Positions 25,639 to 30,006 of a stretch of 50,518 nucleotides of DNA are shown piece after piece; position 1 is the first letter of the stretch; every line of letters begins with the position of its first letter. The stretch is from a bacterium (GTDB lineage: Bacteria; SAR324; XYD2-FULL-50-16): assembly GCA_024275165.1 (NCBI GenBank), contig JAJRZQ010000025.1, forward strand, positions 1 to 50,518, written 5' to 3'. The translations under genes were made by a program, and so were the position numbers. The notes under the pieces are model-generated. The model ran no database searches and was not told where the DNA came from. It saw only the letters and a list, made by a program, of their open reading frames with translations.

Positions 25639-26745
25639 ATGAAGACCTATAAAATCGCGGGTCTCGCCGGCGATGGGATTGGCGAGGAAATCATGAACGA
25701 GGCCGTTAAGGTCTTAAAGGTTCTTGAAGAAAGAAACCCGGTCCAATTCGAGATTACCCAAGCCCTCTTTGGTGGGGTCGCCTACTTTAAAACCGGTCAA
25801 TCCTTCCCCGAAGAGACAAAAAAAATCTGTGACGAGGCCGATGCCATTTTAAAAGGCACCATTGGGCTCACCCACGCGGAATCGCAAAAAATTCCGGTGG
25901 AGGAGCGACCCGAGCGGGGCGCCTTACTCCCCTTGCGGAAACGATACAACACCTATGCGAACTTCCGCCCCGTGTACCTCCCGAAGTCCTTGGCGCATTT
26001 TAGTCCCCTCAAGGCCGAAGTCGTGGGGGAAGGGATTCATATCCTGATGATTCGCGAATTGGTGGGGGGGCTTTATTTTGGTAAAAAAGAGCGCGGGGTC
26101 AATGCCCAGGGCAAACGATTTGTGCATGAGCTTTTAGAATATGACGAAGATCAAATCCGTCAGGTGCAGATCGTCGCCTTTAAAGAAGCGATGAAACGCA
26201 AAAAAACTCTCCACAATGTGCAAAAAAACAATGTCTTATTGAGTTCGGTCTTGTGGAATGAGATTTTAGACGAAGTCCATCAAGATTATCCCGAGGTGAA
26301 GGTAGAGCATATTTTGGTCGACGCGGCAGCGACCTACCTCTGCCTAAACCCCACCCAGTTAGATGTCATGGTGATGGAAAACATGTTTGGCGATATTTTA
26401 TCCGATCAGGCCGGGGGGATTTTAGGCAGCTTGGGCCTCATGCCCAGCGCCTGCATCGGCCCCGATAAGGCCTACTACGAGCCAAGCCACGGGTCTGCCC
26501 CCGATATTGCGGGGAAAAACATCGCCAATCCCTACTCCATGATCGGCAGCGTGGCCATGATGTTGGAGATGAGCTTTGGCATGAAACAAGAAGCCGACAA
26601 CCTCTGGAAAGCCATGCAAGAAGTTTTTATCCAGGGCTACACCACCCCGGATTTATCTAAATTCGGCGGATCGGCTAAGCAAATCAGCACCAGCGCCTTT
26701 GGCGACAAGGTAGTTGAAGAACTCTTGAAAATGCCGAAGGTTTAG
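25639..26745 (+). CDS. leuB: 3-isopropylmalate dehydrogenase
   Basis: The third committed step of leucine synthesis: NAD-dependent oxidation and decarboxylation of 3-isopropylmalate. It has 368 residues. GDGIGEEIMNEAVKVL at the N-terminus, RELVGGLYFG near 137, MENMFGDILSDQAGGILGSL near 236, and EPSHGSAPDIAGKNIANP near 282 are the standard LeuB signatures. It is separate from other leucine genes, and follows cyoE by nine bases. Its stop (TAG, 26743-26745) marks the left edge of the AT-richer insert. Confidence 0.95.
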   Translation: MKTYKIAGLAGDGIGEEIMNEAVKVLKVLEERNPVQFEITQALFGGVAYFKTGQSFPEETKKICDEADAILKGTIGLTHAESQKIPVEERPERGALLPLRKRYNTYANFRPVYLPKSLAHFSPLKAEVVGEGIHILMIRELVGGLYFGKKERGVNAQGKRFVHELLEYDEDQIRQVQIVAFKEAMKRKKTLHNVQKNNVLLSSVLWNEILDEVHQDYPEVKVEHILVDAAATYLCLNPTQLDVMVMENMFGDILSDQAGGILGSLGLMPSACIGPDKAYYEPSHGSAPDIAGKNIANPYSMIGSVAMMLEMSFGMKQEADNLWKAMQEVFIQGYTTPDLSKFGGSAKQISTSAFGDKVVEELLKMPKV

Positions 26746-26806: not shown

Positions 26807-27439
26807 TTGGTTTATAGTAATACGCAACTAGAGGCTATTTTAGGTGATTTGGAATCCGACCTGTACGAAAGGAAAGAAGCCTGGAAAGGAAAGGTTCCAG
26901 ATGCAGGTCGAGCAGCGGTTTGTGCCTTTGCCAACGACCTCCCAGACCACCAAAAACCTGGCATCCTCTTTGTCGGAGTAGACGATAACGGCACCCCCAC
27001 AGGTTTGGAGATTACAGACCAGTTATTACAAACTCTTGCGGATATTAAAACAGACGGACAGATTTTACCTCAACCGAGCCTGATCATTGAAAAAAGAAAG
27101 CTTAAAGACATTGAAGTTGCCGTGATTTCGGTACAACCTGCCACTTCCCCCCCTGTTCGCTACAAAGGACGCATTTACATTCGTACAGGCCCCCGAAAAG
27201 GCATCGCAAGTGCTCAAGACGAAGCCGTTTTAAACGAAAAGCGACGGTTTAAGGATATTCCTTTTGATATCCAACCCTTCGCTTCTGCGACTCTAGAGGA
27301 TATTGATCGAAGAAGTTTTGAAGAGGAGTATTTGCCTCAAGCAACGGAAATCCGGAGCTTCAATTTACCATCGAAGCAACAACAATTCTGTGTACTCTTT
27401 GGAGGTGTACATGACCGTTCCAGTTTTAACCTTTTTTAA
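26807..27439 (+). CDS. AlbA_2 domain protein, apparently C-terminally truncated
   Basis: A 210-residue frame with the Schlafen-type AlbA_2 domain (COG2865-like), usually an N-terminal nucleic-acid-binding module. It opens LEAILGDLESDLYERKEAW, then CAFANDLPDHQKPGILFVGVD and, near residue 120, RYKGRIYIRTGPRK, all typical of the domain. Family members often run to 400 or more residues past the FEEEYLPQA segment; here that segment (near 170) is followed by an unlike 35-residue tail and a stop. The tail overlaps the ParA start by 29 bases. The TTG start lacks a strong ribosome binding site; an out-of-frame ATG lies five bases before. It is probably a decayed or standalone form. Confidence 0.65.
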   Translation: MVYSNTQLEAILGDLESDLYERKEAWKGKVPDAGRAAVCAFANDLPDHQKPGILFVGVDDNGTPTGLEITDQLLQTLADIKTDGQILPQPSLIIEKRKLKDIEVAVISVQPATSPPVRYKGRIYIRTGPRKGIASAQDEAVLNEKRRFKDIPFDIQPFASATLEDIDRRSFEEEYLPQATEIRSFNLPSKQQQFCVLFGGVHDRSSFNLF

Positions 27440-28415
27440 CAATAAGGGCGGCGTAGGAAAAACCTCTTTAGTTTATCATGTCGCGTGGATGTTATCTGAA
27501 ATGAGGAAAAGGGTGGTTGTGGTCGATTTAGATCCGCAAACCAATCTGACTACCGCTTTTTTAGACGAAAATCGGCTCGCCGAGATTTGGCTTCATGACT
27601 GCAAGGAAAAACCCAATACGATTTATCGTGCTGTTCGCCCCTTAACCCGTGTCGGTGATCTACTCAACCCAAAAACAGAAAGCATTAACCATAATCTATG
27701 GTTAATACCAGGGGATGTGGCTTTATCTGAATTTGAAGAACCTTTAGCAGAATGCTGGATCAAAACCATGGGCAGCGGAGATGAGCTATATCGTTCTTTT
27801 CGCATTGTTACCGCATTCTGGCAAGTGGCACAAAAAGTGGCCGAATTCCAAAACGCCGACCTCATTATCGCTGATATAGGCCCTAACTTAGGAGCTTTAA
27901 ACCGTAGTGTTTTGGTAGCCAGTGATTATATCATCATTCCTCTCGCAGCAGATATCTATTCCCTGCAAGGTCTAACAAACCTTGGCCCCACCTTGACTCG
28001 ATGGAAACAAGATTGGAAAAAAAGAGTCGAGAACTGGCAGAATCCCTCGTTTGACATCCCTAACGGAAACATGCGGCCTATCGGTTATATTTGCCAACAG
28101 CACGCCGTCCGAAATAACAAACCGGTTCAAGCCTATGATAAATGGCTCAATAAAATTCCCGACGAATATCGGAATAGTATCCTTAGAAGCAAAGATCAAC
28201 CTACCCACCTCAAACCGGATAAGGATCCCTTGTGTCTAGCCACCATTAAGCATTACCGTAGTCTGGTTCCCATGGCGCAAGAACAAAGAAAGCCCATTTT
28301 TCACTTAACCACGGCCGATGGCGCTATCGGAAGCCATTATAACGCGGTGCAAGCAGCTTATGCAGACTTTGAAAAGCTGACAAAAAAAATTCTTAAAAAA
28401 ATACAATTTTCCTGA
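27411..28415 (+). CDS. ParA/MinD-type ATPase, no ParB partner
   Basis: A 334-residue ATPase of the ParA family. The deviant Walker A NNKGGVGKT (residues 10-18) with signature lysine K12, switch I DLDPQTN (39-45) and Walker-B-like LIIADIGPN are intact. The C-terminal half is longer and more divergent than in plasmid ParA proteins. The ATG at 27411 has GGAGG five bases upstream, so the longer in-frame start at 27303 is rejected. No ParB or parS site is apparent. It overlaps the AlbA_2 frame by 29 bases, implying cotranscription. It could act in partitioning, positioning or defence; function is unknown. Confidence 0.8.
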   Translation: MTVPVLTFFNNKGGVGKTSLVYHVAWMLSEMRKRVVVVDLDPQTNLTTAFLDENRLAEIWLHDCKEKPNTIYRAVRPLTRVGDLLNPKTESINHNLWLIPGDVALSEFEEPLAECWIKTMGSGDELYRSFRIVTAFWQVAQKVAEFQNADLIIADIGPNLGALNRSVLVASDYIIIPLAADIYSLQGLTNLGPTLTRWKQDWKKRVENWQNPSFDIPNGNMRPIGYICQQHAVRNNKPVQAYDKWLNKIPDEYRNSILRSKDQPTHLKPDKDPLCLATIKHYRSLVPMAQEQRKPIFHLTTADGAIGSHYNAVQAAYADFEKLTKKILKKIQFS

Positions 28416-28433
28416 TCTACCTGATTTTTTGAC

Positions 28434-29234
28434 CTAACAGCAAAACCAAGTCCCCCGCCCCCCTTGGGCGATTTTTTTGATTCCCTTGCCGCAGCGGGGA
28501 CAAGGTTGCCCCTCCTTGCCGTAAACCTGCAAAAAATTTTGGAATTCTCCCTGTTTATCATCCACCCGTCGGTAGTCTGAAATGCTTGTCCCATTGTGTT
28601 TTAGGGCCAGGTTTAAAATACGCTTGGTTTCGCTTAAAAAGCGTTCCCAATCAGCTGAAGTCAGGCGCCCCGCTTGTTTTGTCGGGTTCAGCCTTGCCCC
28701 AAACAGAATCTCACAAGCGTAGATATTGCCGAGTCCTGCCAAAGTACGCTGATCCATGATGAATTCTTTGATGCTTTTGCGGGTTTTTTTGGCCCGGGCT
28801 TTCATCTCCAGCGCACTAGGCGGAGCGCTCAAGGCATCGGGGCCGAGTCGTCGCAGCCGGGGGTGGTTTTCTGCATTGGTGATAAACTCCACAAAACCAA
28901 AACAACGGATTTCAGAAAAAATCAGGTTCGCCCCGTTGGAGAGATGAAAAATCACCCGATCATGCGCTTTGAAGGCTTGAGGATGAGCATCGTAAACAAA
29001 TTTACCCGACATCCCCAAATGAGCCAGCATGGCCCCTTGGCTCAAGTGAAAAAGCAAGTATTTCGCTTTGCGCTCAACCTGTTGAAAGCTACAACCTGTT
29101 AAGCTCTGTACAAAAGCCCCATGATCCTTTCGCACCACCGAGGGGCGCAAGACTTCCACTTGAGCAATCACCTGCCCGGGCAATACTTGTCGCAACTCCC
29201 GGCAAATGGTTTCTACTTCAGGGAGTTCAGGCAC
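28434..29234 (-). CDS. mutM: Formamidopyrimidine-DNA glycosylase, zinc finger incomplete
   Basis: MutM excises 8-oxoguanine and formamidopyrimidines. It starts GTG-PELPEVETICREL, with catalytic P2 and E3. KDHGAFVQSL, LAHLGMSGKF and the helix-two-turn-helix AGLGNIYACEILFGA are conserved. The C-terminal zinc finger starts CPRCGKGI and has its third cysteine in TWFC, but one further Cys codon is followed directly by TAG, so the fourth ligand and the usual terminal Gln are absent. The stop lies 18 bases from the end of the ParA-like gene, at the edge of the accessory insert. The GTG overlaps the PlsC stop by eight bases. Confidence 0.92.
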   Translation of the reverse strand: MPELPEVETICRELRQVLPGQVIAQVEVLRPSVVRKDHGAFVQSLTGCSFQQVERKAKYLLFHLSQGAMLAHLGMSGKFVYDAHPQAFKAHDRVIFHLSNGANLIFSEIRCFGFVEFITNAENHPRLRRLGPDALSAPPSALEMKARAKKTRKSIKEFIMDQRTLAGLGNIYACEILFGARLNPTKQAGRLTSADWERFLSETKRILNLALKHNGTSISDYRRVDDKQGEFQNFLQVYGKEGQPCPRCGKGIKKIAQGGRGTWFCC

Positions 29235-30006
29235 GGGGATTGGACTTGCTGATTCCGGGGAAGCCCTCCCCTTCCGGTAAAGGAGCCGGATAAGAATGAG
29301 GCAGGGGGTCGCCGGCGATCAGCGCTTCCATGGTTTGGCGCAAATCGGCCATCAGCTTTTTCCGCCCCCTTTCCCCATAATTTTGCGTTTCAATGGGTTT
29401 GCCCAGGCGCAGCGTTACCTCGCAACCCTTGACAATGGATACCTTGCCCTTCGGCATAATCTTTTCACTCCCTAAGATCACACTAGGCACGATCACCGCC
29501 TTCATATCCATCGCCATCTTAAATCCCCCAGGCTTAAAATTGCCCAGTTCACCGTTTTCAGAACGGGTTCCCTCCGGGGCAATCCAGATCATTACCCCCT
29601 CTTTCATCTTTTCTTTCGCCTGTTCCAAGGACTCCATTGCTTTTTGCGCGTCCCGCCGATCAATGGAGATAAATTCCGCCCGCCGCATGGCAGCCGACCA
29701 TAGAGGAATGTCAAAGAGCTCTTTTTTGGCCAGCATGCGAATGGTCCATTGACTCAAACCCAAAATAGAAATGGGAATATCGTAAAAGCTGCGATGATTG
29801 CACATTAAGATATAGGGTTGATGCGGCTTCAGCAGAATCGGCTCGTCATATTCCACCCGAACCTTCACCCTTGCTTGATGGATCAAGTTTTGGGCCCAAG
29901 AGACCAACCTTTTTTGGATTCTTTTTCTGGAAAAGGGAAAGGGCGCCTCCATCAAGGTCGCCAAAGAAACCCTTAAGGTACTTAAAAACATACGAAAAAA
30001 AACCAA
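29227..30006 (-). CDS. 1-acyl-sn-glycerol-3-phosphate acyltransferase family protein
   Basis: A 259-residue PlsC-type acyltransferase that adds the second acyl chain to lysophosphatidate, or a related acyltransferase. Motif I is NHRSFYD (NHx4D) near residue 70, and motif III is APEGTRSENGEL near 143. An N-terminal hydrophobic helix suggests membrane association. The TTG start at 30006 has AGGAGG four bases upstream; an ATG five codons later is possible. It forms a tight run with mutM downstream and the DsbD-like gene upstream. The C-terminal 30 residues (LPHSYPAPLPEGEGFPGISK) are proline-rich and poorly conserved. Confidence 0.87.
   Translation of the reverse strand: MVFFRMFLSTLRVSLATLMEAPFPFSRKRIQKRLVSWAQNLIHQARVKVRVEYDEPILLKPHQPYILMCNHRSFYDIPISILGLSQWTIRMLAKKELFDIPLWSAAMRRAEFISIDRRDAQKAMESLEQAKEKMKEGVMIWIAPEGTRSENGELGNFKPGGFKMAMDMKAVIVPSVILGSEKIMPKGKVSIVKGCEVTLRLGKPIETQNYGERGRKKLMADLRQTMEALIAGDPLPHSYPAPLPEGEGFPGISKSNPRA

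Follow-up and report, generated by a model that had tools for sequence, protein, structure and literature searches.

Bacterial MutM (Fpg) is a well-known DNA repair enzyme. Its described forms, among them those of Geobacillus (1r2y), L. lactis (1pm5), and E. coli (1k82), share catalytic and H2TH domains, a Pro-Glu (PE) N-terminus, Lys58, a finger hairpin, and an Arg, and the usual zinc finger reads C-x2-C-x16-C-x2-C-Q. E. coli Fpg mutants in the finger cysteines lose DNA binding, at least as such work is cited in PMC4176347. The L. lactis Fpg mutant C268H, in which His replaces the fourth Cys, complemented an E. coli mutator strain, even though its purification failed (PMC4176347). NEIL1 and plant Fpg have zincless fingers (PMC9266487).

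Here, we describe a MutM that is a real but minor variant of this enzyme, encoded at a rearrangement junction in a window of 50,518 nucleotides (the whole stretch of DNA that was analyzed). It shares the domains and residues listed above with the bacterial enzymes, but has neither the fourth zinc Cys nor the terminal Gln, and stops one residue past the third Cys. Like the zincless members of the Fpg/Nei family (NEIL1, plant and fungal Fpg, and mimivirus Nei), it has a finger hairpin whose zinc site is incomplete; in those proteins, however, all ligands were lost over long evolution from a finger that is still full-length, whereas here the hairpin is predicted, three canonical Cys are left, and the tail is missing. 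The C268H laboratory mutant has also lost the fourth ligand, but carries a His in its place and keeps its tail. The features of the locus are as follows:

25639..26745, forward strand: leuB, the end of a conserved SCO1-PCuAC-ctaB-leuB block, at the junction
26807..27439, forward strand: AlbA_2 (Schlafen-type) gene, truncated, 210 aa (Pfam SLFN_AlbA_2)
27411..28415, forward strand: gene for a ParA/AAA_31-like ATPase (Pfam AAA_31 1.9e-29, PHROG 164), complete and convergent with mutM
28416..28433: gap of 18 bp from the ParA stop to the mutM stop, with the junction in or near it
28426..28434, reverse strand: candidate remnant of the lost tail, GGTCAAAAA, similar to the codons for Cys-Gln-Lys in kin with the register shifted by one base
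28434..28436, reverse strand: early TAG stop of mutM
28434..28502, reverse strand: remnant zinc finger, Cys245-x2-Cys248-x16-Cys265-Cys266-stop in translation, where kin have C-x2-C-x16-C-x2-C-Q
28434..29234, reverse strand: mutM (fpg), 266 aa, GTG start, truncated zinc finger (NCBIfam and Pfam)
29227..30006, reverse strand: acyltransferase gene upstream of mutM, the start of a family-wide syntenic block

The finger of this MutM ends abruptly. The first-pass annotation had claimed that the fourth ligand and the terminal Gln are absent, that 16 residues separate the second and third Cys, and that 18 bases separate the mutM stop from the ParA-like stop. Translation of 28434-29234 (reverse strand) bears out all three: the protein stops one residue past the third Cys, the spacing is Cys248-x16-Cys265, and the stops occupy 28434-28436 and 28413-28415. 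This description of the tail was exact, but silent on the extra residue being a Cys. The translated protein terminates ...QPCPRCGKGIKKIAQGGRGTWFCC*, the tail itself being CPRCGKGIKKIAQGGRGTWFCC-stop. The codons of Cys245 (28500-28502), Cys248 (28491-28493), and Cys265 (28440-28442) preserve the canonical C-x2-C-x16-C spacing; the sole residue that follows is Cys266 (28437-28439), and then TAG. The end reads CPRC-x16-C-C-stop against the usual C-x2-C-x16-C-x2-C-Q; four Cys are still in the finger, the second half-site being C-C instead of C-x2-C.

The remainder of the protein is typical of the family. Matches to the two general Fpg equivalog models of NCBIfam, PRK01103 (285 bits; cut-off 212) and TIGR00577 (270 bits; cut-off 203), both exceed the curated cut-offs. 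Pfam assigns Fapy_DNA_glyco, H2TH, and zf-FPG_IleRS, the last over 24 of 30 positions, and alignments contain the invariant columns of MutM/Fpg (P2, E3, K58, N170, and G167/G169), with the N-terminal Pro-Glu and the H2TH motif. An AlphaFold2 model (pLDDT 95.3) has an intact Fpg fold with hairpin strands at 253-257 and 260-264, although AlphaFold models no zinc and is insensitive to lesions of this type, which leaves the model silent on zinc. Its top Foldseek match is the MutM structure 1r2y (TM 0.95). Mean identity to outgroups is 44.0%, compared with 42.6% and 45.1% for the two nearest kin; since divergence is no higher than in these kin, nothing points to long-standing pseudogene decay. The unaccelerated sequence would also fit a fully functional enzyme. 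A search with the MutM protein showed mutM to be single-copy in the genome and detected no second Fpg/Nei-type enzyme.

We compared the tail with 139 distinct MutM tails from family and class relatives and from named genomes. The fourth Cys is in place, three residues past the third, in 133 of them (3 assigned by eye, having been missed by the script pattern). The other 6 lack it, and each carries five residues (x-x-x-Q-R) past the third Cys and an additional Cys shortly past the second. None of the 139 has fewer than five residues past the third Cys, against one here. A complete Cys4 finger is therefore usual, though not universal, in bacterial MutM, and ours lacks it by virtue of its C-C-stop. 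Because 133 tails have the fourth Cys in place and the other 6 are full-length, the shortened tail is not chance variation; the 3'-terminal truncation is genuine and, as far as sampled, lineage-specific. MutM of the alphaproteobacterial type also lacks the fourth Cys, but differs from ours in its full-length tail and in the additional Cys, which is possibly a relocated zinc ligand that replaces the fourth. The 6 loci concerned are L132, L140, L141, L150, L161, and L175; their named sources are proteobacterial, mostly alphaproteobacterial.

A search of genome contigs with the MutM protein alone found no close relative, and an alignment-based scan of the contigs found 80 distant loci (best, 45%). 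The nearest kin compared belong to other genera, with MutM 51-54% identical, too distant to date the truncation or to tie it to the rearrangement.

The two flanks of mutM have different histories. On the 5' side lies a block with HU, FolK, GloB, HPF, and RsmB, in the same order in all 8 family genomes whose contig extends there; most of these 8 also have a 5'-nucleotidase-like gene in it. On the 3' side, the neighbor is recQ in the two nearest genera (G002 and G004, overlapping mutM in G004) and a gene for a secreted binding-protein-like product in the other 7 family genomes, including G001, mostly followed by a secretin-like gene; the last two names rest on our reading of translations. In the genome studied, the AlbA_2 and ParA-like pair and then leuB occupy this side. 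The SCO1-PCuAC-ctaB-leuB block is also found in G002 and G004, there on a different contig from mutM. Judged by gene order, the junction is a place where two conserved blocks are joined, with a foreign-looking pair at the seam, and the mutM 3' flank is lineage-specific: no relative examined shares it. As an observation on the family at large, the gene 3' of mutM varies by clade (recQ, binding-protein-like, or AlbA_2-ParA; L031-L039), and this variation marks the mutM 3' flank as a repeated breakpoint.

The AlbA_2 and ParA pair looks foreign. AlbA_2 has a GC3 of 0.39 and ParA one of 0.43, where the window averages 0.575 (SD 0.068); of the window genes tested in their correct frame, no other is as low (the DGK row, read out of frame, is left out of the ranking). 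No equivalent stands beside mutM or leuB in the family genomes. The ParA relatives are 46-47% identical and occur in G018 and G034, genomes of another family, in different neighborhoods; there, AlbA_2 is 394-430 aa long and overlaps the ParA start by ATGA. For the window AlbA_2, alignment ends at residue 177 of 394 and the protein is 210 aa long; an internal deletion of ~0.65 kb has apparently removed ~217 C-terminal residues. ParA is complete, its frame ending about where those of relatives end. Two genes near the junction have thus lost their 3' ends: mutM and AlbA_2.

How was the tail lost? Just past the new stop, GGTCAAAAA matches TGYCARAAR (TGY-CAR-AAR, the Cys-Gln-Lys codons of many kin) with one mismatch. 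Near the expected place, a match of this quality turns up at 0.6% of window positions and in 2.1% of local-composition simulations. These out-of-register Gln-Lys-like codons speak for a tiny in-place lesion rather than a tail replaced by inserted DNA, but fall short of proof. The best explanation, to which we give about an even chance, is a lineage-specific truncation that combines a rearrangement at the mutM 3' end, a very small lesion, and a weakened enzyme. A rearrangement would have set the foreign pair and the leuB block against the mutM 3' end; around that event, a very small lesion would have damaged the last mutM codons and placed a stop one residue past the third ligand. The catalytic N-terminus, the H2TH domain, and the finger hairpin with its phosphate-clamping Arg remain. 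The protein would be made and folded with an incomplete zinc site, giving a hypomorphic 8-oxoguanine glycosylase, and MutY would still handle the A:8-oxoG step. Three parts of this account are inferred: how the events followed one another, the small-lesion mechanism, and the loss of activity.

A clean clip is the next candidate, and an unlikely one: incoming DNA or the rearrangement would have broken mutM behind the Cys265 codon, with the joined DNA supplying the final Cys codon and the stop. The 18 bp between the two stops, the unshared junction, and the foreign composition of the pair speak for it. Against it stand the codons past the stop, which resemble the native tail; the ParA frame, whose ending about as in relatives leaves no breakpoint visible there; and the lack of any insertion hallmark. 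The ORFs and a tRNA check revealed no integrase, transposase, or tRNA at the junction, and with them no mark of a mobile element; matches flanking the pair were at chance level alone, with no convincing direct repeat or site duplication. LeuB, moreover, is also newly beside mutM, which makes this a rearrangement rather than a simple insertion. The first-pass annotation had proposed that insertion of foreign DNA clipped the gene and altered DNA repair. The lineage-specific truncation, the unshared junction, and the foreign-looking pair stand; insertion as the cutting agent is unproven, and the evidence just given weighs against it; altered repair is plausible.

A fully active MutM with a rearranged finger is improbable. 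Zinc would be held by Cys245, Cys248, and Cys265 together with Cys266, the terminal carboxylate, or water, or else the hairpin would work independently of zinc. Consistent with this are the four remaining Cys, the hairpin and Arg260 predicted intact, the absence of rate acceleration, and the alphaproteobacterial proteins with their additional Cys. Neighboring Cys in a pair, however, seldom ligate one zinc, and the prediction comes from the zinc-blind model. Known proteins fall on both sides: NEIL1 and plant Fpg have zincless fingers (PMC9266487) and C268H complements in vivo (PMC4176347), but the E. coli finger mutants lose DNA binding, as far as they are cited in PMC4176347. We hold it slightly more doubtful still that this is a working bacterial MutM whose zinc site was rebuilt as C-x2-C-x16-C-C-COOH and fixed in the lineage after the rearrangement; if true, the Fpg finger would be able to do without its fourth ligand and its tail in nature. 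It is very improbable that the mutM end reflects an assembly or consensus error: this is a draft assembly of 47 contigs and, compared with kin, the tail is shifted in register by one base, but the frame is canonical as far as Cys265, a register change alone gives no fourth Cys (the aligned codon is Gly), and the mutM end has no long homopolymer.

To return to the truncated enzyme, the protein is probably made and folded. Loss of the fourth Cys should destabilize the finger; full inactivation is uncertain because L. lactis C268H still complemented in vivo, and the likeliest state of MutM is that of a hypomorphic (weakened) 8-oxoguanine glycosylase. We do not see a new kind of system here: the case is probably one of ordinary gene decay, and the enzyme may be weakened. 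An impaired MutM would make the lineage a natural G:C to T:A mutator with MutY still in place; an active one would be a natural experiment on how large a part of the Fpg zinc finger the enzyme needs. The case also illustrates the erosion of housekeeping-gene ends where foreign modules and rearranged blocks meet. Since gene ends often decay at rearrangement junctions, the case has modest reach.

Other repair genes give further context. Both MutY and Nth genes are present in the genome (HhH-GPD scan). Of 9 family relatives, 8 have recQ; this genome, 98% complete, lacks it, and its best helicase match is sub-threshold (85.9 bits against a cut-off of 219.8); a search of the genome for the permease found downstream of recQ in kin gave no match. 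Deletion of recQ along with the mutM tail was considered as well. A tree of concatenated neighbors places the genome studied as sister to the G002 and G004 clade, and in G001 and the outgroups mutM is followed by another gene, which weakens that scenario; the mutM-recQ adjacency may be derived in G002 and G004.

The AlbA_2 and ParA genes form a two-gene module, perhaps one for defense. PADLOC returned no convincing system match for it, and a literature search for such a system found no relevant match. In G002, ParA-like proteins (30%) are paired with a RiboL-PSP HEPN protein or an unknown 230-aa protein, an arrangement that suggests a ParA with interchangeable partners.
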